From Sulfuritalea sp. (GTDB lineage: Bacteria > Pseudomonadota > Gammaproteobacteria > Burkholderiales > Rhodocyclaceae), in assembly GCF_017302275.1 (NCBI RefSeq), contig NZ_JAFLDR010000025.1, forward strand, positions 1 through 60,995: a stretch of DNA of 60,995 nucleotides. Reading direction: 5' to 3'. Below, piece after piece: positions 43,043-56,254 of this stretch (positions are counted from its first letter, which is position 1; the number at the start of each line of letters is the position of its first letter). The notes below the pieces were generated by a model. The model made no database searches and was not told where the DNA came from. It saw nothing but the letters and a program-made list of their open reading frames with translations. A program made the position numbers and the translations under genes.

Positions 43043-44938
43043 ATGACCCGACCGGACTGGCTGTCCACGGAGCGGTTTCGCAAAACCTGGCAGTTCCTCG
43101 CCGTGACGGTGCTTGCCCTGGTCGTCTCCCTGGGCAGCGAGCGGCTTGGCTGGCTGCAGGATTACGAGAACATCTACTACGATTACTGGCACCAGTTGGC
43201 GGGAAAGCGGCGGGACGCCCGGCATGCGGCGGTGATCGCGGTCGATGACGACACGCTGCTGCAGTACCGGGACGATCCGTTGGCATTCTGGCAGCCGATC
43301 TTCGCCGTTGCGATGCAGAACCTTACGGACGCCGGCGTCAAGTCCATCGGCCTCGATTTCATCTATGCGGTCAGTGCCGAAGCCTGGCTGCGCAAGCTGA
43401 ACCTGCCGGACAGCGAGGTTTCGCGCAACTACGATTCGCCGTTTCGCGGCCAGTTGGCGCAAGGTGGCAAGATACTCATCGCGCAACTGGTGGAGACCTC
43501 GCAGGGCGACATGGAGGTAATCGGGCCGCCGCAGGAGCACCTGCTGATGCTGCCCAATGGCGCCCATGACACGGGAATCGCCAACCTGTACCCGGACAGC
43601 GACAAGCTGGTGCGCACCTTTTATCCGGTGGTGATACCCGATCCCCAGTTTCCCGGAGTCGGCTTCGCCATGCAGCTGGTGCTGCGAGCGACCGGCGGCG
43701 ACAGCCTGGCCGGGGGCTGGACCTTCGCCGGCGAGACCTATGCGCGAAACCGCGAGCGACGGCGCATCGGCTTCGTCGGTCCGCCCGGCAGCATGCTTAC
43801 GGTTTCGATGAGCAAGCTGCTGCAGCCCGACGCGCTGGCCGATCCCGAGGTGCGCAAGCTCAAGGGGCGCTCCGTGATCATTGCGCCGAACAACATAGGA
43901 ACCTCCGATCGTCATTTTTCGCCCTATTCGAGGGTGTTGCCCGGGTTCTCGGCGGAGCCGATGATCGGCGGCGAGATCCATGCGAACGCGATCGAGACGA
44001 TCCTTTCCGGAATCTATCCGCGCAATCTTTCATTGTGGCTGGCCTGGCCGGCGCTGGTGTTGGTGCTGGTTGTCGCGGTGACCCTATACCTGCGCCTGCA
44101 CCCGGCGGGAGGCCTTGGCGTCGGGCTTGGATTGTCGCTGCTGATAATGATTCCGGCCTACGCCCTGTTCCAGAAGGACCTGCTGCTGGCTGTTGCACCG
44201 TTCCATGTCGCGCTGGCGACGGCCTACCTGGGGACGCTGGCGCTGCGCCTGACCGGCGAGGAAAGGCAGCGCGCCCACCTGAAGTCGATGTTCGGACAAT
44301 ACGTGTCCGACGTGGTGGTCGACAAACTGATCGCCGAGGGACAGCGTCCCAATCTGAGCGGCGAAAAGCTCGAGGTGACGGTGCTGTTCTCGGATATCCG
44401 CAATTTCACGACTATTTCGGAAAAGCTCGATGCCGAGGAAGTCGTGGAAATGCTGAACGCCTACTTCGGACTGACCTGCGAACCGATCCTGGAGCAGGGG
44501 GGCATGGTGAACAAGTTCATCGGCGATGCGGTCATGGCTGTGTTCGGTTCGCCGGTGCATTACCCCGATCACGCTCGGCGCGCGTTGCTGGCCGCACAGG
44601 GCATGGCGCGCGAGGCGCAAGGCTTCAAGGACTGGATGAAGCAGCGCTTTCCCGACCGGGGCCTGCCCGAATTCGGCATCGGCATCGGCGTGCACACGGG
44701 GCCAGCGGTAATGGGTGACATCGGCTCGATCAAGCGCCGCGAGTTCACCGCGATCGGCGACACCGTGAATGCCGCATCGCGCCTGGAGGGGGCGACCAAG
44801 GATCTCGGTTGCGTGGTTGCGGCCAGCGCCGCCGCGATCAAGGCTGGCGGCGAAGGCATACGAACCGGACGGCGCCAGGTCATCCAGGTCAAGGGCAAGG
44901 CCGAACCGATCGAAGTATTCGAAGTGCTGGTGGATTGA
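43043..44938 (+). CDS. CHASE2-domain adenylate/guanylate cyclase
   Basis: Membrane receptor cyclase of 631 residues. One N-terminal membrane segment (FLAVTVLALVVSLGS), a periplasmic CHASE2 sensor domain (~residues 30-330), then a cluster of membrane segments (LSLWLAWPALVLVLVVAVTLYL and following). A cytoplasmic class III cyclase domain follows from ~430. The latter has VTVLFSDIRNFTTISE (metal Asp), KFIGDAVMAVFG (second metal Asp) and FTAIGDTVNAASRLEG, so it looks catalytically complete. Substrate ATP is likelier than GTP but not certain. It heads the block of exported caspase-like and two-partner-secretion genes and may set its expression through cAMP. Confidence 0.9.
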   Translation: MTRPDWLSTERFRKTWQFLAVTVLALVVSLGSERLGWLQDYENIYYDYWHQLAGKRRDARHAAVIAVDDDTLLQYRDDPLAFWQPIFAVAMQNLTDAGVKSIGLDFIYAVSAEAWLRKLNLPDSEVSRNYDSPFRGQLAQGGKILIAQLVETSQGDMEVIGPPQEHLLMLPNGAHDTGIANLYPDSDKLVRTFYPVVIPDPQFPGVGFAMQLVLRATGGDSLAGGWTFAGETYARNRERRRIGFVGPPGSMLTVSMSKLLQPDALADPEVRKLKGRSVIIAPNNIGTSDRHFSPYSRVLPGFSAEPMIGGEIHANAIETILSGIYPRNLSLWLAWPALVLVLVVAVTLYLRLHPAGGLGVGLGLSLLIMIPAYALFQKDLLLAVAPFHVALATAYLGTLALRLTGEERQRAHLKSMFGQYVSDVVVDKLIAEGQRPNLSGEKLEVTVLFSDIRNFTTISEKLDAEEVVEMLNAYFGLTCEPILEQGGMVNKFIGDAVMAVFGSPVHYPDHARRALLAAQGMAREAQGFKDWMKQRFPDRGLPEFGIGIGVHTGPAVMGDIGSIKRREFTAIGDTVNAASRLEGATKDLGCVVAASAAAIKAGGEGIRTGRRQVIQVKGKAEPIEVFEVLVD

Positions 44939-45020
44939 CGCATCGGGGAACCGGTAGCCGCGGCGGACAGTCGACGGGAGGCAAAAGTCGTTGAGGTCTT
45001 GAATTTCGTGATTTGGGTGG

Positions 45021-45026
45021 GATAAT
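45021..45026 (+). promoter_or_regulatory. Possible -10 box before the caspase/FGE gene
   Basis: GATAAT, 47 bases upstream of the chosen start. The -35 is not clear. It suggests the block downstream of the cyclase has its own promoter. Confidence 0.35.
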
Positions 45027-45072
45027 CAAAGGCCGGATTCGCTGGCTGGACAGTATTCTCGTAAAACTACCA

Positions 45073-47094
45073 ATGGCGATCAGCAACATCATTCATCCAA
45101 TGTGGCTTCGGCCGGTTGCCGCGATCCGACGCGCCATCGGCGTCGGCCTCGCGTTGGTGACCTTGCTGGGAACCGTCGGCGCTCCCGCACAGGACCGCAA
45201 TTCCGGCGGGCCGTCTTCGCCGCAGGAAGCGCGCGTGGCGCTGATCATCGGCAACTCCGACTACAAGTCGGCACCGCTTGAAAATCCCGCCAACGACGCC
45301 GCCGACCTGGCGAATGCCCTGGAAAAGCAGGGCTTCAAGGTTCTGGTGCGCGAGAACGTCGGCGAACGCGGACTCAAGGAGGCGGTGGATGTCTTTGCCA
45401 GACACCTGAAGCAGGGCGGAATCGGACTGTTCTTTTTCGCCGGCCACGGCATTCAACTGAAGGACCAGAATTTCCTGCTCCCGGTGGATATCGGTTTCGA
45501 CAGCGAGGCCGACATCACCTTCAAGTCCGTCAGTGCGGAATACGTCCTGTCGCGCATGGCCGAGGCGGGAAATCGCATCAATGTCGTGATACTCGATGCC
45601 TGTCGCAACAATCCTTTCCAGCAGGCGCGCAAAAACGTAAGCAAGGGCCTGGGCGTAATGAACGTCGGCCGTGCCGAGAAGGGAACCTTCATTGCCTATG
45701 CAACCTCGCCGGGTGCCACCGCGGCGGACGGCACCGGGCGCAACGGGCTTTACACCAAACACCTGCTGCGTTCGCTGGAAACACGGGATTCCGATATCGA
45801 CAAAGTGTTCGGCCGGGTCCGCACCGGCGTGGTGCAGGATACGGGCGGCGACCAGGTGCCATGGACCTCGAGTTCCGTGATCGGAAGCTTTCACTTCGAC
45901 CTTGTCGAGGATATGGCCGCCCTGCGCGGAGCAACGCAGCCGGCTGCCGCCAGGCACGAGGCGGCAGCCGAGGCGGCCACGGCACCCTATGATCCGGTAC
46001 AGGAGAGGGCGTACTGGGAGCGCATCAAGGATAGCCGCGTCGCCGCGGACTTCGTCGGCTACCTCGAGAAGTTCTCCGGTGCGCCGCGGGCGGCCTATGC
46101 CCGCTGGATGGCAACCAAGTATGGCGGGGTGGTACCCGCGATCGCCGCGCGCCCCGCTCCGGTCACGTCGCCGGAGCCGGAACGCCTGGCACTGGCAACG
46201 CCGTCCCCGCCACCGCAGCTACCGGCAGGCAGCGCCCTCTCCGGGGCGATTCCCTCTCCCGGTACCGTGATCCATGATTGTGCCGAGTGTCCCGAACTTG
46301 TCGCGGTTGCGCCCGGGGAGTACACGATGGGCAGCGGGCCGAAGGAAAGGTTGCGCGAGCCCGACGAAGAGCCGGCGCATCGGGTACGTGTTGCGACCTC
46401 CATCGCCGTTGGGAAGTACGAGGTGACCCGGGGCCAGTATTCAGCGTTCGTCAAGGAGACCGGGCGCGAGCAAAAGCCCGGTTGCCATTCCACGCGCGGG
46501 GGGGTTTTCCACAAGAATCCCAAGGCGACCTGGCAGAATCCAGGATTCGAGCAGAAGGACGATGACCCGGTGGTCTGCGTCAGTTGGGACGATGCACAGG
46601 CATACCTCGCGTGGCTGGGCAAGAAAACCGCCAAGCAATACCGGCTGCTCAACGAGTCCGAGTGGGAGTACGTGGCCCGCGCCGGGACCACCGGCAGCCG
46701 TCACTGGGCTGACGCGGATCAGGCGGCGACCTGCCGCTACGCCAGCGTGGCGGATACGACGTTCAAGAGCGTCTCGCCCGGGGCGCCGCTGTTTCCGTGC
46801 AGCGACGGGTTTGCGTTTACCGCGCCTGTCGGGCGCTTCCCGGCCAATCCGTTCGGGATTCATGACTTGCTCGGCAATGCGTGGGAATGGACCGAGGATT
46901 GCTGGAACGAGGGATATGCCGGCGCGCCCGCGCTCGCCGCGCCGCGCCTTACCGGATCCTGCGCGGAGCGCGTGTTCCGCGGCGGGGCCTGGAACAGCGC
47001 GCCGTCAACGGTTCGGGCCGCCTATCGGGACCGCGGATCGAAAGACGAGCGCCACGATAACCTCGGATTCAGGGCTGCGCGATCCCTGCCGTGA
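45073..47094 (+). CDS. Exported caspase-like peptidase fused to an FGE-sulfatase (SUMF1) domain
   Basis: 673 residues. A signal-anchor or signal peptide (AIGVGLALVTLLGTVGAPAQ) is followed by a caspase p20-like domain: RVALIIGNSDYKSAPLENPANDA, the catalytic His125 in FFFAGHGIQ and Cys177 in ILDACRNNPF. A linker of about 100 residues (Ala/Pro-rich at its end) leads to a formylglycine-generating-enzyme-type domain from ~residue 395 (VAVAPGEYTMGSG, YEVTRGQYSAFVKETG, RLLNESEWEYVARAGT, NAWEWTEDCWNEGY, RVFRGGAWNS, LGFRAARSLP). Both caspase residues are intact. Start at ATG 45073 is likely but has no good ribosome site. Overlaps the next caspase gene (GTGA). Function unknown. Confidence 0.85.
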   Translation: MAISNIIHPMWLRPVAAIRRAIGVGLALVTLLGTVGAPAQDRNSGGPSSPQEARVALIIGNSDYKSAPLENPANDAADLANALEKQGFKVLVRENVGERGLKEAVDVFARHLKQGGIGLFFFAGHGIQLKDQNFLLPVDIGFDSEADITFKSVSAEYVLSRMAEAGNRINVVILDACRNNPFQQARKNVSKGLGVMNVGRAEKGTFIAYATSPGATAADGTGRNGLYTKHLLRSLETRDSDIDKVFGRVRTGVVQDTGGDQVPWTSSSVIGSFHFDLVEDMAALRGATQPAAARHEAAAEAATAPYDPVQERAYWERIKDSRVAADFVGYLEKFSGAPRAAYARWMATKYGGVVPAIAARPAPVTSPEPERLALATPSPPPQLPAGSALSGAIPSPGTVIHDCAECPELVAVAPGEYTMGSGPKERLREPDEEPAHRVRVATSIAVGKYEVTRGQYSAFVKETGREQKPGCHSTRGGVFHKNPKATWQNPGFEQKDDDPVVCVSWDDAQAYLAWLGKKTAKQYRLLNESEWEYVARAGTTGSRHWADADQAATCRYASVADTTFKSVSPGAPLFPCSDGFAFTAPVGRFPANPFGIHDLLGNAWEWTEDCWNEGYAGAPALAAPRLTGSCAERVFRGGAWNSAPSTVRAAYRDRGSKDERHDNLGFRAARSLP

Positions 47095-48536
47095 CCAGCC
47101 GCCGAGATGACCCGTCGCGCCGCGGCGATCCGCGCAGCAGGTTGCGACGCAGCCTGTTGCTGGGTGGAGGCGCCGGACTGGCGCTGGGTTCCATGTCGAT
47201 TTCGCCGAATCTGCTGGCGCAGGCGGGTGGCGATCCGGTACAGGACATCTATGCGCCGCGGGCAAAATATGCCCTGCTGATCGGTAACCGCGACTATCCG
47301 AATCGCAAGGATATCGCCCCGGCCCACAAGAACGTCACCGACCTCAAGGACGTCCTCGAGTACTACGAATTCAAGGTCAGGGATTATCGCGACCTCGATG
47401 CATTGGGAATGCTGCGGGTCATGACCGAATTCGGCGCGGAACTCCGTAGTGTCGGCGAAGGCAACCTGCCGGGTTCCGTCGCCGTGGTGTTCTATTTTTG
47501 CGGCCATGGATTTCAGTCGGCCGGCCGCAATTTTCTGGTGCCGGCCGGGATCGATCCTTCGTCGGAAAAGGCGCTCAGCGCGTCGCTGCGCCTGAACGAA
47601 GACATCCTGGTGGCATTGCCGCAACGCTATCCGGGCATCAGCATCGCGCTGATCGATGCCTGTCGCACCGATCCCTTCATTCGGCGCGGAGTGGATGACT
47701 TCAACCAGATCGTTGCCCCCGAGGGGATGCTGGTGTTTTTCGCCACCCGTGCCGGGCGTCCGGCCCTGGCGCCGATCAGCGCGGATCGCAATACCTTCTT
47801 CGCCGGCGCCCTGGTGGACGTGCTGCGCGATGCCAATGGCGTGACGCCGGTCGATGATCTGTTCCGGATCGCCGCCGTCGAGTGCCAGGCGCGGGTGAAG
47901 GCGGAGTTCGACAAGGTCAAGCTGGCCATTCCGCCCCAGTTTCCGGAAAGTACCGGCAATTTGCGCGGCCGCTTCGTGATCCGCAACCGCCAGCTCGAAC
48001 TGCTCCGGACACGCAAGGGGCCGACGCTGATCGGCGTCGATTCCGCCCTGATGGAGCGGCGCTGGCAGGCCGTCCAGGAGACGCTGCGGCCGGCGCGATT
48101 GATCCGCCTCTGCCAGGACTTCGAGCGGGATTTTCCCGGCAGCGAGTTCAGCCAGCAGATCCGGGTCGCGATCAGCGGCGCACAGCAGGCGCTGGACAGC
48201 CAGCGCTCGGCGCGTCTCTCCGGCGACCTCTTCGTCGAGGGGGCCGGCGACAAGGGATACCGCGACGACTTGCTCAAGGCCTTGCGCGGCGACAAGGATG
48301 CGGCGCACCGGATCGCGATCGCCTATCGCGATGGGACCTCCGGTGTCGCCGCCAATCCCCGGCGCACGGAACAATGGCTGCGCTTCGCCGCCGAACTCGG
48401 CAACGGAATCGCCAGTTGGGAGCTGTCCGAAATCTACAACCAGAGCGACCAGGTCGCCGACGCCGCGAGGTTCGAGAAAAAGGCGCTCGATCTTGGTTAC
48501 CGCCCGCCACCCAGGCTGGCGACGCGTGGATACTGA
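47091..48536 (+). CDS. Exported caspase-like peptidase with C-terminal Sel1-like region
   Basis: 481 residues from GTG 47091, overlapping the previous stop. The N-terminus has a twin-arginine-like signal (RLRRSLLLGGGAGLALG). The caspase domain starts at YALLIGNRDYPN, with His139 in YFCGHGFQ and Cys191 in LIDACRTDPF, both present. After a helical linker the C-terminal ~140 residues resemble Sel1/TPR repeats (GDKDAAHRIAIAYRDG, WLRFAAELGNGIASWELSEIY, ARFEKKALDLGY). The same region is duplicated as the next gene. It is probably periplasmic. Substrate unknown; the co-encoded TpsA or OmpA-like protein are possible targets. Confidence 0.85.
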   Translation: MTSRRDDPSRRGDPRSRLRRSLLLGGGAGLALGSMSISPNLLAQAGGDPVQDIYAPRAKYALLIGNRDYPNRKDIAPAHKNVTDLKDVLEYYEFKVRDYRDLDALGMLRVMTEFGAELRSVGEGNLPGSVAVVFYFCGHGFQSAGRNFLVPAGIDPSSEKALSASLRLNEDILVALPQRYPGISIALIDACRTDPFIRRGVDDFNQIVAPEGMLVFFATRAGRPALAPISADRNTFFAGALVDVLRDANGVTPVDDLFRIAAVECQARVKAEFDKVKLAIPPQFPESTGNLRGRFVIRNRQLELLRTRKGPTLIGVDSALMERRWQAVQETLRPARLIRLCQDFERDFPGSEFSQQIRVAISGAQQALDSQRSARLSGDLFVEGAGDKGYRDDLLKALRGDKDAAHRIAIAYRDGTSGVAANPRRTEQWLRFAAELGNGIASWELSEIYNQSDQVADAARFEKKALDLGYRPPPRLATRGY

Positions 48537-49365
48537 AGGAAAGGACGGAAATCCGGCTCGCGGCTGCCGCACGGCGGACCGTGTTGCCGTGTCGTCGGCG
48601 CCGACTTTTGTCCTCCCGCGCTTTCTTCCCCGGTTCGGCGCCGCGACGTTGGCATGGTGCGCATTGGCCGCCGGAGTTGGCGCCGCAGCGGTAGCCGACC
48701 CGACTCGCAAGTCGACGGGCGCCGCCGACGCCCGCGAAGCGCGACCGGCCGCTCCCGCCCGTCGGCCGGCGCCCGTTGTGTCCAATCCGGCGCTACGGAT
48801 GAAACCGGCGGGTTCGGTCGATTCCCGGTCGACAGATCAACCGCAGTTGCCGGTGTCGCCCAGCTTCATGGCGTCCGGGATGGACGAATGCTGGGAGAGA
48901 CTCAAGGCGGCACGACGGCCGTCCAAGTTGGTGCGCATGAGCGAGGCATGCGAAAGAGATCATCCGGACGGCGCGTTCGCGGAGGAGATGCGGAATATTG
49001 CGGCGGGCGCCGGCAAGGTGCTGGAAATCCAGCACGCCATCGGTCTTTCCGGAGACTTTTTCGAGGATGCCGTCGGCGATGCAACGTATCGGTCCAACCT
49101 GGACAGGGCATCACGCGGCGACAAGGATGCGGCATATCTCATGGCGATGGCCTATCGGGTCGGGATGTTCGGCGTCGAGGTGAATTTGCGACGGATGGAA
49201 CAATGGCTGCAAATTTCAGCCGGATTGGGCAGCGGACTGGCAAGCTGGGAACTCGCGGAATACTACAACTATGGCGGGCGGGTCGCCGACGCTGCCCGCT
49301 TTGAAAAACGGGCGTTGGATCTGGGCTATAAACCCGCTTTTCGGCTGCCTACCCGCGGCTACTGA
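48526..49365 (+). CDS. Exported Sel1-like protein, paralogue of the preceding C-terminus
   Basis: About 279 residues from GTG 48526, overlapping the caspase stop; GTG 48589 is the alternative start. Hydrophobic segment AATLAWCALAAGVGAAAVA, an Ala/Pro-rich linker, then ~150 residues that align with the C-terminus of the upstream caspase protein. Shared features are GDKDAAYLMAMAYR, ASWELAEYYN, VADAARFEKRALDLGY and the identical end TRGY. It lacks the caspase domain. It reads as a duplication that kept only the protein-interaction part, perhaps as a partner or decoy for the caspase. Confidence 0.75.
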   Translation: MDTEGKDGNPARGCRTADRVAVSSAPTFVLPRFLPRFGAATLAWCALAAGVGAAAVADPTRKSTGAADAREARPAAPARRPAPVVSNPALRMKPAGSVDSRSTDQPQLPVSPSFMASGMDECWERLKAARRPSKLVRMSEACERDHPDGAFAEEMRNIAAGAGKVLEIQHAIGLSGDFFEDAVGDATYRSNLDRASRGDKDAAYLMAMAYRVGMFGVEVNLRRMEQWLQISAGLGSGLASWELAEYYNYGGRVADAARFEKRALDLGYKPAFRLPTRGY

Positions 49366-49557
49366 GCCGGCATGGGCGCGCCGGGACTGGCGGTTTGACT
49401 GTATGCATGAGCTAGAATCAAGCGTTGTACACCGCAGCTCCACGGTCGGCTGGTTGTATCGCTTGGGCGTATATCCTTCCGGATCCCATCCAGACTCGGC
49501 AAGGCTTGTCTCGTTTGCGTTCCGTGGCGGGCGGGTTGGCTGGAGACAACAAGACCA

Positions 49558-51300
49558 ATGAGTTCGAACCAGCGACGAGGGGGAGTTTGCGCGCAGGCGG
49601 GACTGCGCCGATTGCTGTCGTGCGGAATGCTGCTGTTGCTGCCTTGCGGGGCGGCCTTCGGTCAGGCGGCTCCCGAGGCGGGATCCTTGCTGCAAACGTT
49701 GCCGCCGCCGGCATCGCGGCCGGGAACAGTTCCCGACATTGACGACCGGTTCTCCAAGCCGCGGGCCATCGCCGACGTGGAAGGGATGCGCCTGGAGGTC
49801 AAGGGTTTTCGCCTCGTCGGCCTGACGGTTGCCGCCGAGGCCGACATGGGCGACGCACTCGCCCCGTTCGTCGGTGCCGACAAACGCTTTCAGGATCTGC
49901 TCGATGCCGCCGCCGCGGTGCGGCGCGAGCTTGCCGCGCGCGGCTATTTTTTGGCCGACGTCATGGTTCCGGAGCAGAAGCTGAAAGAGGGCGTGGTCGA
50001 GTTGCGCGTGCTCGAAGGACGCCTGGGCAAGGTTCGCCTCGAGGTGGACCCAGCGGTGTCGATCAGCCGGGCTTTGCTCGCGTCCTATATCGCCTCGCTT
50101 GAAGAAGGCGAATTGATCCGCACCGGGGATGTCGAGCGCGCCCTGTTCCAGATCCATGACCTGCGCGGAATCGTCGCCACCAGCAGTTTCGGTCCCGGGG
50201 CCGCGGCCGGAACGGCGGACCTGACCATCCGGGTCAGCCCCGGCAAGAAGCTCGACGCCAACCTGGATTTCGATGCCAACGGCTCGGTGTACACCGGCAT
50301 CCATCGCATCGGCGGCGGCGTGGATGGCAACAGCCTGCTGGGTTATGGCGAGCTCATCAATGTGCGCGCCAGCAACGCCATCGACGGCAACCTGCGTTTC
50401 GCGCGGGCCTCCGCGCTGGTGCCGGTCGGCCCCTGGGGCACCAAGGTCGGGGCCGCCTATTCGGAACTCAAGTATCGGCTTGGCACCCCTGCTTTCAATG
50501 CGCTCAAGGTCAACGGCGCCGCGGCGGTGGTTTCGCTGATCGCCATCCATCCCGTGATTCGTTCGCGCAACACCAATTTGCTGGTGATCGGGCAACACGA
50601 CAAGCGCAAGTTCCATGACATCCAGCTGGCGACCGGCGCCGAGACGTTGAAAAAGACCGACGTCAGTTCCCTCGGCTTTTCCGGTGACTTCCGCGACCGC
50701 CTGGGCGGCGGCGGCATCAACGTGTTCAATCTCGCCTATACGCTGGGCGAACTCAAGTTCGGCACCGTCGGCCTTGAAGCGACCGACTTTGCCGGACGCA
50801 GGACGCGGGGGCAGTTCGGCAAGACCAATGTGTCCCTGTCTCGCCTGCAGGCGGTGTCGGAACGCCTCGCGCTGTACGCCTCGTACAGCCAGCAATTCAC
50901 CAACAAGAACCTCGATCCCAGCGAGAAGTTCAGCCTCGGCGGGCCGAATGCCGTGCGCGCCTATCCCCAGGGCGAAGGCGCCGGTGACCGAGGCTATTTC
51001 GCCAGCCTGGAAATGCGCTATCGGCTGCCTTTTGATGAAGACCTTCCGGGCAGCCTGGTGCTGACCGGGTTCTACGATTTCGGGCGCTCCATCCTGATCC
51101 AGCAACCGACGGCGGCCGACCTCGCGGCCAATGCCGAGCGGCTGCGACGTATCGCCGGCCCGGGCATCGGCGTCAATTGGGAAGTGCCGAACGACTGGTA
51201 CCTGCGCACCACGCTGGCCTTCCGAGATACCACCAAAGCCACCGCCGACCACCTGTTGCGCTATCCCCGCTTTTACTTCCAGGTCAGCAAGTTTTTCTGA
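49558..51300 (+). CDS. Two-partner secretion outer-membrane transporter (TpsB, ShlB/FhaC family)
   Basis: 580 residues. Signal peptide (LLSCGMLLLLPCGAAFGQ) and a short linker. Two POTRA domains follow (first FRLVGLTVAAEADMGDAL ... GYFLADVMVPEQKLKEGVVELRVLEGRLGKV, second ELIRTGDVERALFQIHDLRG), then a 16-strand beta barrel. The barrel has the conserved GYGELINVRASNA, a QFTNKNLDPSEKFSLGGPNAVRAYPQGEGAGD segment (loop L6 region; VRAYP motif) and a C-terminal Phe. It exports the adjacent TpsA protein. It starts 192 bases after the Sel1-like gene, perhaps with its own promoter. Confidence 0.92.
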   Translation: MSSNQRRGGVCAQAGLRRLLSCGMLLLLPCGAAFGQAAPEAGSLLQTLPPPASRPGTVPDIDDRFSKPRAIADVEGMRLEVKGFRLVGLTVAAEADMGDALAPFVGADKRFQDLLDAAAAVRRELAARGYFLADVMVPEQKLKEGVVELRVLEGRLGKVRLEVDPAVSISRALLASYIASLEEGELIRTGDVERALFQIHDLRGIVATSSFGPGAAAGTADLTIRVSPGKKLDANLDFDANGSVYTGIHRIGGGVDGNSLLGYGELINVRASNAIDGNLRFARASALVPVGPWGTKVGAAYSELKYRLGTPAFNALKVNGAAAVVSLIAIHPVIRSRNTNLLVIGQHDKRKFHDIQLATGAETLKKTDVSSLGFSGDFRDRLGGGGINVFNLAYTLGELKFGTVGLEATDFAGRRTRGQFGKTNVSLSRLQAVSERLALYASYSQQFTNKNLDPSEKFSLGGPNAVRAYPQGEGAGDRGYFASLEMRYRLPFDEDLPGSLVLTGFYDFGRSILIQQPTAADLAANAERLRRIAGPGIGVNWEVPNDWYLRTTLAFRDTTKATADHLLRYPRFYFQVSKFF

Positions 51301-51396
51301 TTCGCGGGCGACAGCGTTGCCCACCGATTGAGTTTGCCGATTCGACGCACCGCCTTTCGCCAGAGCGATGCGGGTAATTCGCCAAAGGACATTGCC

Positions 51397-54300
51397 ATGT
51401 TCAAGCACGCCACGCTGAATCGATCTTACCGTTTGATCTGGTGCGAATTGCACGCGACCTGGGTCGCCGTGGCCGAATTCGCCGGCAGGCGCGGCAAGCG
51501 CAGCTGCGGCGCCCTGGTCACGGGAGCGGTGCTTGCGCTGATCCCCGCGGCGGCGGCGGCGGGAGACCCCGCGCCGAACGCTTTGCCCTCGGGTGGCCAG
51601 GCTGTCGCCGGGCAGGTGGCTATCGGTGCCAGTGGAGCGCGTATGGATGTGACCCAGTCGTCCGGGAGCGCGATCGTCAATTGGGACAGCTTCAACATCG
51701 GCAGCCACGCCCACGTTAACTTCGTCCAGCCCGGCTCCTCGTCCGTCATACTCAACCGGGTGCTGGGCGGCGAGGGTTCGGCGATCTTCGGCCGCATGAC
51801 CGCCAATGGCAACGTGTTCATCAGCAATCCCGGAGGCATTCTGTTCGCCCCCGGCGCCCAGGTCGATGTAGGCGGCCTGGTGGCCTCGTCGCTGGGCATC
51901 TCGGATGCCAACTTCCTCGCAGGAAAGTACCACTTCGAAAGAGTCGGTGCCGGCGGCACGGTGGCAAATCAGGGCACCATCAATGCAGCGAACGGCGGCT
52001 TCGTTGCCCTGATCGCGCCGCGAGTCGCCAATGGCGGCAGCATCACGGCGAGCGGCGGCAGCGTCGGCATGGCTGCCGGCGATTCGGTGAACCTCGATTT
52101 CGACCACGACGGTCTCCTAAGCTTTCAGGTCAACGTCGCTACCGCTGCCGCGCGAGCAGACAACAGTGGCGTCATCGTCGCCGACGGCGGACGGGTGGTG
52201 ATGGACGTGCGGGCCAAGGAAGCCTTGCTGTCCACCGTTCTCAACAGTGACGGCATCATCCGCGCCCGCAGCCTCGAATCGCGCAACGGTGAGGTTTGGC
52301 TCGACGGCGGCGGTTCCGGCGTGGTCAGCGTAACCGGCACGCTGGATGCCTCGGGCACGGGCGCGGGCATGCACGGCGGCATGGTCAAGGTACTGGGCGA
52401 CAAGGTCGGCCTGTTCGGTCAGGCGACGATCGACGTTTCCGGAGTCGGCGCCGGCGGTACGGCACTGGTCGGCGGCAATTGGCAGGGCAAGGGGGCGGAG
52501 CGCAATGCCAGCGCCACCTACGTCGGCCGCGAGGTGAAGATAGCGGCCAATGCCATTGGCAGGGGTGATGGCGGCAAGGTGGTGGCCTGGGCCGACGGCG
52601 ACACACGCTTCTACGGTTCCGTGAGTGCGCGGGGCGGCGCCCTGGGTGGCGAGGGCGGACAGGTGGAGGTTTCAGGCAAGCACCGGCTCGCCTTTGCCGG
52701 GAAAGTGGACACGCGCGCTCCCGCCGGCAGGACCGGTATGCTGCTGCTCGATCCGGATGACATCGATATCAACACCGGCGGGGCGGATATCGCGACGGTG
52801 GGTGACGGCAATGCGATCGTAACGTTCGCCGAGTCCGTCGATCCAGGCGTAAGCATCACGCCCGCATCTCTGGTCCTGCTCGATACGGACGTTTCGCTTT
52901 CGGCAAACAACGACATCACGTTCAGTTCGGCGCTCAGCTTGAACGCCACCCGCAGCCTTACCGCCGTGGCGGGACGCAACATCACGGTCAACGCCGCCAT
53001 CGACGCACCGGGCGGCGTCGACCTTACGGCGGGCAACAGCGTCGCCGGCACGCTCACCGTTGCCGCCGGCATATCCTCGCTGGGAACCATCGCGCTGAAG
53101 GCTGGTGCGAATCCCGTGATCTTCGACCTGACGACCGCACCCGTACTGACGGCGACCATTACTGGCGGCGCGGGCAGCGACACCGTCACGGGTAGCGGGC
53201 AGACCTACACCCTGGACAACGCCACGGCCAATGCCGGCAACAACGGCACGGTGAGCTGGACCTCGATCGAGAACCTGACCGACAGCGGCGCCGGGATCTT
53301 CCAGATGGGCACCGCCGGCAGCGTCGCCGGCACGCTGACGGCGGTCAATGGCACGGTCAGCTACGCCACGCGCACGGCGGCGGCCAGCTTCGCCCTGGGC
53401 GGCGGCGCCAGCAGCGGCATGGGCGGCTGGAGCGGCATCACCACGGTAGCCGGCAGCGGCAACAGCGACACCGTCACGGGCGCCGGCGGCACCTACAATC
53501 TTACGGGTGTCAATTCCGGAAGTGACGGTGCGGTGGCCTGGACTTCGATCGAAAACCTCACCGCGACCGGCGTATCCACCCTTGTCTTTTCCGGTGGCAG
53601 CAATCTCGGCGGTAACCTCAGTGTCGGCGCCGCGACGATCGGGGGCACCGTACGCACGGGTGGCAACCAGACCTATGCCGGACCCGTGACGCTGAATTCC
53701 GCAACCACGCTGACGTCATCGGGTGGCGGGTCAATATTGTTCGCCGGTACTGTCGATGGTGCTCAGGACTTGACTGTCAATACTGCCGGCACTACGACCT
53801 TTGTCGGGGCTGTCGGCGGTGTGGTGGCGCTGACCTCACTCGCTACGGACGCGGCCGGCAGCACCGCGATCGGTGGCGGCTTGGTGCAAACCAGCGGGGC
53901 GCAGACCTACAACGACCCGGTGTCGGGCAGCGCGATCTTTACGGTGACCGGCGCAGGCGACATTTCTGCGGCGAATCCCGGCAACAGCCTTGGTGCGCTA
54001 TCCCTGAACGGCGTGAACGCGGTGGTTCACAATGCGGGAGGCATTACTTTGGGGACGTCGAGCCTTACCGGATACCTTGACCTTGTTGCGGGTGGCGACA
54101 TAGGACAATCCGGCACGCTTACAGCCGCCAATCTCTGGGCCAGTTCTTCGGGAAGCATACTTTTGAAGAACGCCAATGTTCTTGGGGGCACGGTTTCCCT
54201 GATCGCCGGAGCCGGCGGTGAGGTCTGGTTGAATTCAGACCGGATTGCGGTGGGGACGGTCCGGCCTTCCGACGGCTCGACCACGAATGTCGGCATATCG

Positions 54301-54843
54301 GGCGAACGGATTACCCTCCAGGCTCCGAATGCGGCAGCGTTCATCACCACCGGGGTCGAGGGCGAAGTAACCGCTTCCGCCCCGCTCAGCTCGATTCCGG
54401 CGCTTACGATCATGGCCAACGGCGTCATAGGCAACGCAGGCGCGCCGACCACCCAGGGGCTACGGGTGCGGACCAGCGGTTTGGTTCGTGTCGTCGGTGA
54501 CGGCATCGGCGATGGAGCGATCTTTTTGATCGGCGACGACTCCATCCAACCGAAGTACGAATTCTCCGGCGATCCCTTGCACCGGACCGTCAAGTACAAC
54601 GGCGCCGACGCTGCCAATGCCCAGTTGACCGGTGCCCTGGATGCCGCCTACCTGGACATTCGCAACCAGACCACCGAGATCCGGGAATCCGGTTTCGCCA
54701 AGGAGAATGCCAGCAAGGTGTTGCGGCGGGGCGTGGTGACCTCGGCCGGTCCCGGGCAGCCCGCGGTGGATGACAGTACCGGGATGGCCGGACTGGAGTC
54801 ATGCGAAGGCAACTTTGGAGGAAGCACGCTTTCCTGCGAGTAA
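51397..54843 (+). CDS. Two-partner secretion exoprotein (TpsA, filamentous haemagglutinin-like)
   Basis: 1148 residues from ATG 51397 behind AAGGA. The extended signal peptide (ESPR: NRSYRLIWCELHATWVAVAE) is typical of TpsA proteins. The TPS secretion domain follows (about residues 60-330), with NWDSFNIG, the haemagglutinin activity region SNPGGILFAPGAQVDVGGLVASSLGIS and parallel beta-helix repeats. Residues ~600-750 contain two related ~80-residue repeats (SDTVTG-x-G-x-TY ... WTSIENLT). The C-terminus keeps the common ending GFAKENASKVLRRGVV and a Cys pair. Short for an FHA, so probably a small beta-helical adhesin or surface protein. Made by the same block as the exported caspases. Confidence 0.92.
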   Translation: MFKHATLNRSYRLIWCELHATWVAVAEFAGRRGKRSCGALVTGAVLALIPAAAAAGDPAPNALPSGGQAVAGQVAIGASGARMDVTQSSGSAIVNWDSFNIGSHAHVNFVQPGSSSVILNRVLGGEGSAIFGRMTANGNVFISNPGGILFAPGAQVDVGGLVASSLGISDANFLAGKYHFERVGAGGTVANQGTINAANGGFVALIAPRVANGGSITASGGSVGMAAGDSVNLDFDHDGLLSFQVNVATAAARADNSGVIVADGGRVVMDVRAKEALLSTVLNSDGIIRARSLESRNGEVWLDGGGSGVVSVTGTLDASGTGAGMHGGMVKVLGDKVGLFGQATIDVSGVGAGGTALVGGNWQGKGAERNASATYVGREVKIAANAIGRGDGGKVVAWADGDTRFYGSVSARGGALGGEGGQVEVSGKHRLAFAGKVDTRAPAGRTGMLLLDPDDIDINTGGADIATVGDGNAIVTFAESVDPGVSITPASLVLLDTDVSLSANNDITFSSALSLNATRSLTAVAGRNITVNAAIDAPGGVDLTAGNSVAGTLTVAAGISSLGTIALKAGANPVIFDLTTAPVLTATITGGAGSDTVTGSGQTYTLDNATANAGNNGTVSWTSIENLTDSGAGIFQMGTAGSVAGTLTAVNGTVSYATRTAAASFALGGGASSGMGGWSGITTVAGSGNSDTVTGAGGTYNLTGVNSGSDGAVAWTSIENLTATGVSTLVFSGGSNLGGNLSVGAATIGGTVRTGGNQTYAGPVTLNSATTLTSSGGGSILFAGTVDGAQDLTVNTAGTTTFVGAVGGVVALTSLATDAAGSTAIGGGLVQTSGAQTYNDPVSGSAIFTVTGAGDISAANPGNSLGALSLNGVNAVVHNAGGITLGTSSLTGYLDLVAGGDIGQSGTLTAANLWASSSGSILLKNANVLGGTVSLIAGAGGEVWLNSDRIAVGTVRPSDGSTTNVGISGERITLQAPNAAAFITTGVEGEVTASAPLSSIPALTIMANGVIGNAGAPTTQGLRVRTSGLVRVVGDGIGDGAIFLIGDDSIQPKYEFSGDPLHRTVKYNGADAANAQLTGALDAAYLDIRNQTTEIRESGFAKENASKVLRRGVVTSAGPGQPAVDDSTGMAGLESCEGNFGGSTLSCE

Positions 54844-54987
54844 TCCCGATTGACAATTCTCGGCTCGATGCTTCGATTCCGGCCGGAATTGCCCGGAATC
54901 GTGACTTTTGTCGTTGACTGGGGGTAGACCGGCGGGTATGTTTTGAGCCCAAGTAGTTCGCTGTTGCCGCTTTCCCCGGAGGTAATC

Positions 54988-55545
54988 ATGTTCAAAAGCC
55001 TTGTTGTCGCCGCGTTGTCGATATTTTCTTTGTGCGGAGTCGCATTTGCCGCGGATGACGACACAAGGCAGACGGCGTCGATAAACACGCCCAATCCGAA
55101 GGTTGATGAGGTCGAAGGCGCCTTGTTTCCCAAGGAGATCGTCGCCCTGAAGGATGAATGCGCGCAGATGGAGAAGATCGGACTGCGTTGCCAGGGCGTG
55201 ATTCCCAAGTCGTCCCTGGATACGATACAGGTCACTTTCGCGCGTGGCTCGGCCATCCTGACCGACGAGGGCAAGGGTTTTCTGCGGTCCGTGGGCGCGG
55301 CCTTGCAACGCAAGTCGGGCGTCTGGAAGTCGCTCCTCATCGAAGGGCATACCGACGCAACCGGCAGCGAGGCCACGAATCGTCGCCTGTCCAAATCCCG
55401 TGCCGATTCGGTCAAGACTTTCCTGCAGGCAGAGTTTGGTTTAGGCAACATCGAGACGGCCGGGCGGTCCAGCGACAAGCTGCGGGATGCCGATAATCCG
55501 TCCGGCGCCTTGAATCGTCGTGTTGAATTCGTTCCCAACTGGTGA
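54988..55545 (+). CDS. OmpA-family peptidoglycan-binding protein
   Basis: 185 residues from ATG 54988 behind GGAGG. Signal peptide (MFKSLVVAALSIFSLCGVAFA), a short linker, then an OmpA C-terminal domain from ~residue 75 (IQVTFARGSAILTDEGKGFL, LLIEGHTDATGSEATNRRLSKSRADSVKTFL). This domain binds meso-DAP in peptidoglycan. There is no beta barrel, so it is a periplasmic anchor. It overlaps nothing but is followed 5 bases later by the FecR-like gene. Confidence 0.85.
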   Translation: MFKSLVVAALSIFSLCGVAFAADDDTRQTASINTPNPKVDEVEGALFPKEIVALKDECAQMEKIGLRCQGVIPKSSLDTIQVTFARGSAILTDEGKGFLRSVGAALQRKSGVWKSLLIEGHTDATGSEATNRRLSKSRADSVKTFLQAEFGLGNIETAGRSSDKLRDADNPSGALNRRVEFVPNW

Positions 55546-55550
55546 GAATC

Positions 55551-56201
55551 ATGAAAATACTTGCAACGAGCATGGTGGTTGTCTCATTCCTTGCCTCGCT
55601 GGCCGGTGGCGTTTCTGCTGCGGATGCCGGTGGCGACGTAGGGCTGGTGAATGCCCTGCAGGGCGACGTCAGTTACCAGGGCAAGGATGGCCCCGCGCGC
55701 AAAGCTCAGGCCTACATGAGACTGCGCCATGGCGACAAGATCGTGCTCGCCTCGGGCGCCAGCATTCGCATCAGCTATACGACGGCAAGCCGCCAGGAGT
55801 CCTGGACGGGGCCGGGCAGTTTCGTCGCGACTTCTGCCGGAGGCGAACTGTTGAAGGGCAACAAACCCGAGGTGTCGCAGTTGCCTGCGGCCGTGCCGCA
55901 GAAACTGGCCCGCGTTTCCGAGTTGATGAATACGTCGCGAGTCGGCGGCCTGGTGGTGCGGTCGGCCAAAGCGCAGACGTCGGCCAGCAAGGAGGAAGTG
56001 GCTGCGGCGGTGGCCACCTATGAGTCGATGCGGGCTGCCGCGGCACCGACCGATGTGACGCCGGAACTGTTCCTGTACTCGGTGTTTCAGGAGCACGGGA
56101 TGATCGACGACCTGAAGATCGTCGCCCGCGAGATGATGTTGCGTCAGCCGGATAACGCGGAAATCCAACAACTGGCCAAGGCGGCACTCGCCGCCCGCTG
56201 A
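55551..56201 (+). CDS. Exported FecR-like domain protein
   Basis: 216 residues from ATG 55551. Signal peptide (ATSMVVVSFLASLAGGVSA), then a FecR-like beta domain (VGLVNALQGDVSYQ ... YMRLRHGDKIVLASGASIRISY ... GPGSFVATSAGGELL). The C-terminal ~80 residues are helical and TPR-like (ATYESMRAAAAPTDVTPELFLYSVFQEHG). FecR-like domains outside iron uptake are often found beside CHASE2 cyclases and surface proteins. Here it closes the block, just before a strong terminator. Specific role unknown. Confidence 0.75.
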   Translation: MKILATSMVVVSFLASLAGGVSAADAGGDVGLVNALQGDVSYQGKDGPARKAQAYMRLRHGDKIVLASGASIRISYTTASRQESWTGPGSFVATSAGGELLKGNKPEVSQLPAAVPQKLARVSELMNTSRVGGLVVRSAKAQTSASKEEVAAAVATYESMRAAAAPTDVTPELFLYSVFQEHGMIDDLKIVAREMMLRQPDNAEIQQLAKAALAAR

Positions 56202-56219
56202 GAGTCCGCAGTATGGATG

Positions 56220-56254
56220 GGCCGTGGCCGGCGCAAGCCGGCCACGGCCTTTTT
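56220..56254 (+). terminator. Strong rho-independent terminator closing the caspase/Tps block
   Basis: A perfect 12-bp stem GCCGTGGCCGGC-gcaa-GCCGGCCACGGC is followed by CTTTTT. It separates the accessory block from ftsK. Confidence 0.9.

Follow-up and report, generated by a model that had tools for sequence, protein, structure and literature searches.

The described system closest to the locus reported here is the release of CdrA, an adhesin exported by two-partner secretion (TPS). It is released by LapG, a periplasmic cysteine protease that acts on the C-terminal tail of CdrA under the control of cyclic di-GMP (c-di-GMP), as outlined in excerpts of two reports (PMC5422565, PMC4694147). A second parallel is HMW1, whose tethering needs Cys 1518 and Cys 1528 according to an excerpt of PMC3983070, and which appears with HxuA among the anchored TPS proteins in an excerpt of PMC5422565. 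We analyzed a 60,995-nucleotide stretch of DNA from Sulfuritalea sp. (contig NZ_JAFLDR010000025.1, hereafter the window; contig C18 of the 4.4 Mb draft genome G000). It carries a block of eight genes, all on the + strand between 43043 and 56201, in which a caspase-like protein termed CaspSel is encoded upstream of a TPS transporter, TpsB, and its exoprotein, TpsA. We propose, with a probability of about one in two, that CaspSel is a dedicated periplasmic caspase that would trim or release the anchored tail of TpsA, by analogy with LapG and CdrA. Each of the parts is known already; what is new is to find a TPS adhesin combined with a caspase of its own and a tail to match.

As in the LapG/CdrA system, a putative periplasmic cysteine protease would thus face the C-terminal tail of a TPS adhesin. 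However, LapG is a transglutaminase-like peptidase (PF06035) whereas CaspSel is a caspase, linkage is the usual state for the genes of CaspSel and TpsA, and the pair has a CHASE2 cyclase gene beside it in the block. No Peptidase_C93 protease of the LapG/LapD/LapA type was found in the block, whose proteases match PF00656, and no c-di-GMP receptor (LapD) appears among the Pfam matches of the eight block proteins at E 0.01.

CaspSel (47091..48536, + strand) comprises a twin-arginine (Tat)-type signal, a caspase domain and a C-terminal helical Sel1-like domain (about residues 310-473). Pfam assigns it to Peptidase_C14 (PF00656), with a Sel1 match below the cut-off of that family. The catalytic dyad His139/Cys191 is invariant in the nine sequences of alignment A1 and in the 39 sequences of alignment A3, and residues R19-R20 of the signal are invariant in A1. 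Tat-type signals were recognized in 59 of the 62 N-terminal stretches assessed, against 72 of 1240 shuffles. The predicted caspase fold is close to that of MALT1, which is also the nearest solved relative by sequence; as the fold matches were caspases only, this comparison speaks for the caspase domain and not for the C-terminal helical domain. With this predicted fold and its dyad, CaspSel belongs to the Peptidase C14 family and resembles the orthocaspases and the paracaspase MALT1. The first-pass annotation had described intact His and Cys residues in both caspases of the block, and the same holds for the other one, CaspFGE, whose His125/Cys177 (numbered from the ATG at 45073; 145/197 from 45013, where the frame opens) are invariant in the eight sequences of alignment A2. 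Known bacterial caspases differ from CaspSel by its Tat-type export and its fixed link to a TPS protein with a tail signature. Excerpts of a 2012 survey (PMC3501461) report 46 caspases behind an N-terminal helix that could be a signal peptide, Sel1 and FGE partner domains, and OmpA in 14 caspase operons; a link to hemagglutinins or TPS is not named in those excerpts. Among the matches listed from the open-licence literature (titles and starts of abstracts), no paper deals with a caspase serving a TPS system.

The candidate substrate, TpsA (51397..54843, +), begins with an ESPR (7.6e-11) and a TPS domain (PF05860, 6.8e-33; TIGR01901) and contains a DUF5649. It follows by about 95 nt the gene for TpsB (49558..51300, +), an outer-membrane transporter with POTRA domains and a ShlB barrel (PF08479, PF03865, PF01103). 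By their domains, TpsA and its adjacent cognate TpsB qualify as a two-partner secretion (type Vb) system. The last part of TpsA (54619..54840) carries the signature E-N-x4-L-R-x-G-V ... C-x10-C-E. TpsA proteins encoded beside CaspSel, whose whole open frames range from about 1,070 to 5,300 residues, share this C-terminus of about 70 residues; all 27 rows of alignment A5 keep the same E, N, R, G and V and both Cys. Among 58 non-redundant tails, the two Cys are separated by 8 residues in 32, by 10 in 10, by 9 in 8, by 7 in 6 and by 12 in one, a range of 7-12 in 57 of them; the gap could not be read in the last, truncated tail. The window TpsA thus has the terminal Cys pair, about nine residues apart, that marks proteins of the HMW1 type. 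The resemblance to HMW1/HMW1B and HxuA covers the Cys pair and not the E-N...G-V part, and HMW1 differs in having a glycosyltransferase as its third partner. The tail matched no Pfam or NCBIfam model at E 0.01. In 12 complete TpsA proteins with no CaspSel in view (from loci L051-L070), the signature is absent and at most one Cys lies in the last 45 residues. In Aquabacterium, a TpsB gene is followed by a gene for an exported-type protein of 177-178 residues that consists of the TpsA tail twice over and has no TPS domain (L171:3441-3974 and L172:3059-3595).

Our proposal draws on the joint occurrence of CaspSel and of this tail. When profiles of both were run against 399 genomes of the order that are at least 90% complete, each matched three, and these were the same three: G000, G134 and G039. 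G000 had contributed to both profiles and the coordinates of the G134 tail coincide with those of the tail of G093 (Derxia), a member of A5, whereas G039 is an independent case in which CaspSel and the tagged gene are about 170 kb apart. The tail was also present in all 40 named CaspSel genomes (G061-G100). In these, 38 of the 44 CaspSel matches have a TPS domain or a tagged TpsA no more than 20 kb away. The other six belong to Limnobacter-type genomes, which have no TPS gene near CaspSel and nevertheless encode one tagged TpsA each elsewhere, its tail 4.3-7.4 kb from a TPS domain. The 40 genomes contain 112 TPS domains (about 2.8 each), and tails equal CaspSel matches in number. This count leaves aside short second copies and weak partial tail matches (Aquabacterium-type G062-G066 and G087; G089:C32; the second copy in G097:C1), and the ratio is not 1:1 in those genomes when they are included. 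A second, distant CaspSel occurs in four genomes, each of which has a second, diverged tail too. Among the relatives G001-G036, 13 of the 16 genomes with CaspSel carry the tail, and in the other three (G009, G014, G015) contigs end inside TpsA. The earlier idea of a tie between exported caspases and TpsA is supported for CaspSel, which shares genomes with the tail even where the two are unlinked.

Supporting a joint action of caspase and TpsA, a single open reading frame (ORF) combines a TPS domain with a C-terminal Peptidase_C14 domain in G051, G052 and G032 (L149:3851-10270, L150:4114-10014, L151:4046-9910). The His and Cys motifs are present in these fusions and the anchor tail is absent. 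ORFs resembling FHA and PP2C proteins, by inspection, lie beside L149 and L151, and L151 also has an OmpA match and a kinase-like ORF.

We then considered how far the block as a whole is conserved. In a TpsB search of 61 genomes, orthologues with 70-88% identity were found in 15 other genomes of the genus, against 36% at most among long matches elsewhere; the closest CaspSel genes come from metagenome-assembled genomes mostly named Sulfuritalea or Rhodocyclales. CaspFGE, CaspSel, TpsB and TpsA follow each other in the window order in all 15 congener loci (L036-L050). The cyclase is found in 14 of them, L047 starting at CaspFGE, and a Sel1-like gene, recognized by its own match or by one to the CaspSel tail, in 14, L048 lacking it. 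The OmpA gene, the FecR-like gene and FtsK come next in the four loci whose contigs reach that far (L039, L048, L049, L050). In L049, TpsA is split into two ORFs in different frames. The order put forward from the window is thus kept elsewhere as far as contigs reach, save for the locus without Sel1 gene, and since it recurs in congeners the block is more than a chance assembly: within its genus, the eight-gene set is truly conserved as a unit.

Outside the genus the picture is different, and CaspSel genes are mostly 33-39% identical. Scanning genome contigs with the CaspSel alignment gave 78 loci, selected by CaspSel alone and nearly all of the Burkholderiales/Rhodocyclales type (a few are labelled otherwise). 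A TpsA or TpsB match or a TpsA tail occurs in 62 of them. The 16 others comprise eight Limnobacter-type loci, six that are cut by contig ends or partial (L087, L114, L124, L140, L144, L145) and two true exceptions (L083, L084). Four arrangements were observed. CaspSel lies upstream of TpsB on the same strand in Sulfuritalea; it is divergent from TpsB and has an OmpA gene on its far side in Accumulibacter, Zoogloea, Niveibacterium, Uliginosibacterium and L056; it directly follows a very long TpsA gene in Aquabacterium, Rubrivivax, Piscinibacter, Roseateles/Pelomonas and Derxia; and in the Limnobacter type it is unlinked to TPS, being preceded by a ClpV-type gene within a type VI secretion cluster. 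Pfam identified as type VI neighbours TssF and a ClpV-like AAA protein (L105), a ClpV-like protein (L165), TssM/TagF/TssK (L143) and TssM (L136). Next to tagged genes, it identified VipB in L173, a PP2C and a type VI FHA gene in L174 (a Limnobacter-type TpsA) and a kinase in L166 (G039). Type VI clusters in which a ClpV-type gene precedes a Tat-type CaspSel were noted in L105, L110, L121, L127, L131, L141, L146, L147 and L165, with a Pfam check in L105 and L165. Queried with the Derxia sequences, a plasmid collection of 72,556 records gave no match with at least 80% CaspSel coverage at E 1e-10 and no tail match at E 0.001.

The first-pass annotation had seen in the eight genes a single system, and the comparison does not bear this out. 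The core kept outside the genus is CaspSel with TpsA/TpsB, joined in some loci by OmpA, and CHASE2 cyclase and FecR-like genes turn up beside CHAT-domain or other TPS genes; we thus rejected an indivisible eight-gene system. In L155, L156, L157, L158 and L160, from other genomes, CHASE2 cyclase genes adjoin TpsB, CHAT-domain or FecR-like genes, which suggests that CHASE2 and FecR-like modules recombine.

How CaspSel could work on TpsA may be pictured as follows. TpsB would export TpsA with the N-terminus first. The tail would then probably stay in the periplasm and tether TpsA to TpsB, because its end with a Cys pair, which could form a disulfide, resembles the HMW1 anchor. CaspSel would fold in the cytoplasm and leave it by the Tat route. 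As secretion of TpsA runs from N to C, the anchored tail would face the periplasm, within reach of a Tat-exported caspase. CaspSel could recognize the conserved tail, perhaps via its helical C-terminal domain, and cut in or near it, so that the adhesin would be released or finished, release being the likeliest outcome. We favour cleavage of the tail because LapG does likewise to CdrA and because a Tat-exported caspase could reach it. The result would be a switch comparable to LapG, with an unrelated protease at its core and, in place of a c-di-GMP receptor, an adjacent CHASE2 adenylate cyclase. In the Sulfuritalea group, CaspFGE, the Sel1-like duplicate, the OmpA protein and the retention-module-like protein may regulate or brace this system. 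More tentatively, at slightly less than even odds, CaspSel and the TpsA tail would represent a protease-signal pair, the tail acting as an unnamed C-terminal signal for sorting or release and CaspSel as the Tat-exported paracaspase that reads it. This would make a TPS system whose dedicated maturation protease is encoded next to it, with a coupling to type VI secretion in some lineages. A caspase linked to a matching substrate tail is directly testable in environmental bacteria. If true, our proposal would give a defined extracytoplasmic job to bacterial caspases, whose roles are mostly unknown, and would tie a cyclic AMP-type sensor, rather than c-di-GMP, to the control of an adhesin.

On the other hand, several observations weigh against this proposal. 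The signature profile was built from TpsA proteins adjoining CaspSel, so that independent tests are provided only by loci outside the profile (Limnobacter type, G039, G036, G096-G099 and further congeners and relatives). In G039, the tagged protein does not match a TPS domain. In L083 (3790-10722), CHASE2, CaspFGE, CaspSel and Sel1 genes are followed by an inverted FecR-like gene, making five genes of the block with no TPS in the 20 kb locus, in a genome not covered by the tail search. No TPS is in view around L084 either, a second CaspSel copy whose genome, G021, lies outside the set of 40 and has two CaspSel genes and one signature. Two of the 20 relatives in which CaspSel was not found (G027, G030) carry the tail on a TpsA cut at a contig end, absence of CaspSel in such relatives (G002-G035) being deduced from the TpsB search and the CaspSel-alignment scan. 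The R of L-R-x-G-V is missing from the tails of G039 and L174, the sole one of six Limnobacter-type tails read by residue; because of these two, no single Arg site fits all tails, and a universal Arg cleavage site in this motif was discarded. Finally, a LapG homologue (PF06035) is encoded elsewhere in the genome of the window (G000:C88).

An alternative explanation is that CaspSel and the tagged TpsA descend from one ancestral cluster and that finding them together is no sign of contact, TpsA being handled by LapG or another protease. That the records are nearly all of one taxonomic type agrees with it, as does the presence of LapG in 45 of the 78 genomes searched, and since the Limnobacter-type tagged TpsA also adjoins a type VI FHA gene, one split of such a cluster could account for the unlinked cases. 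However, the pair has been kept through three linked arrangements and an unlinked one, Limnobacter-type genomes retain both members, and some CaspSel genomes have no LapG match (for example G093 from Derxia, G070 and G094). LapG, found with CaspSel in some genomes and not in others, was therefore set aside as missing partner, and we consider mere inheritance of an operon unlikely. A different activity, less likely again, is that CaspSel, having cut the tail, attaches the newly made end to some other molecule of the envelope. PorU is a caspase-like clan CD enzyme, and clan CD enzymes act as sortase-like transpeptidases in the type IX system. A parallel can be drawn at the level of folds between PorU/PorK-GldK and the block, both having a clan CD enzyme, an FGE-fold protein and an OmpA protein, around surface-protein sorting in type IX, and the conserved C-terminal signature would suit such a reaction. 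But type IX is another secretion system with a peptidase of another family (C25, gingipain/PorU), for which the Pfam scan of the block gave no match at E 0.01. Moreover, the FGE-fold domain of CaspFGE is less similar to PorK (E 2.4e-15) than to PvdO (5hha, E 1.5e-53), its nearest solved protein, no acceptor or surface-glycan gene was recognized in the block, and the Cys pair could already be an anchor, as in HMW1.

The least likely of the alternatives, and in our opinion a quite improbable one, is that the caspases are effectors, death proteases exported or displayed against neighbours or for self-killing, with neighbouring TPS and type VI genes providing the delivery. The TpsA-caspase fusions would fit this role, as would the type VI genes adjoining CaspSel in Limnobacter-type loci, Derxia and L136, and cell death is a frequent theme where bacterial caspases are discussed, as in excerpts of PMC3501461. 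Yet CaspSel has its own Tat-type signal, the Pfam scan detected no TPS domain in it, and the tail signature in genomes where the two genes are unlinked would be left unexplained; no candidate immunity gene was noticed in the locus maps, in which no search was aimed at such genes.

We finally return to the other genes of the block. The first, on the + strand like all of them (43043..44938), encodes a protein of 631 residues with a CHASE2 sensor (Pfam 1.9e-28) and a class III nucleotide cyclase domain (Guanylate_cyc, 4.9e-23). Its motifs SDIRNF at 450, NKFIGD at 490 and IGDTVN at 571 contain the residues that we take to be those expected of an adenylate cyclase; it would thus be a CHASE2 adenylate cyclase with its catalytic residues, and cyclic AMP may be the signal that controls the system. 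Excerpts of two studies describe CHASE2 sensors associated with a periplasmic FecR-domain protein or a regulon member, in Burkholderia BiofilmReg (PMC5192318) and with the Sinorhizobium CHASE2 cyclases and the FecR-domain protein SMc02177 (PMC5498481). Unlike in the block, the Burkholderia output in that excerpt is a histidine kinase, and caspase or TPS genes are not mentioned in either excerpt.

CaspFGE (45073..47094, +) has a Sec-type signal by inspection, the caspase domain described above and an FGE/PvdO-like domain. A true formylglycine-generating enzyme (FGE) has an active-site Cys pair in its C-terminal motif. The matching stretch of CaspFGE has no Cys, so an FGE enzyme activity was rejected. 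A separate gene encodes a Sel1-like protein (48589..49365, +; signal peptide by inspection, no caspase domain). The gene has no Pfam family at E 1 and duplicates the C-terminal domain of CaspSel (profile residues 310-473), which matches it through the A1 profile at 48868-49359 with E 4.9e-55. A second free-standing copy of this domain lies elsewhere in the genome (L168:6382-7089; G000:C33), in a fetched stretch of 13 kb that contains no TPS match.

The OmpA-domain protein (54988..55545, +; Pfam 6.4e-15) would bind peptidoglycan as its family does, and OmpA profile matches of 82-115 bits adjoin CaspSel in Accumulibacter/Zoogloea/Niveibacterium-type loci. The last gene (55551..56201, +) encodes a small exported-type protein with an all-beta N-terminal domain. 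Its supposed identity as FecR is not supported by Pfam, which gave no FecR match at E 1, and the best hints are weak: a LapA retention module (NCBIfam) at 24.4 bits, below the curated cut-off of 50, and a Foldseek resemblance of its model (mean pLDDT 63) to the 'Cell surface anchoring domain' 5ix9 (E 1.4e-3, TMt 0.80), no match reaching E 0.001.

As for the layout, ORFs and Pfam agree on eight genes on one strand, as first described, and export signals are indeed found on most products: signal peptides by inspection on CaspFGE, CaspSel, the Sel1-like protein, TpsB, OmpA and the FecR-like protein, and the ESPR of TpsA by Pfam. A strong terminator-like hairpin closes the block, with 14 pairs followed by a T-run (56219..56250, +). 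Overlaps, said to be many, amount to a sure one of 4 nt between CaspFGE and CaspSel and one, also of 4 nt, between OmpA and the FecR-like gene if the latter starts at GTG 55542 (with a start at ATG 55551, the genes are 5 nt apart); the other five junctions are gaps of about 50-190 nt. Elsewhere in the genome of the window, another caspase gene (G000:C10:62180-62821, L159) has a FecR-like gene nearby, and in several congeners a caspase similar to that one has a CHASE2 gene some 5 kb away.

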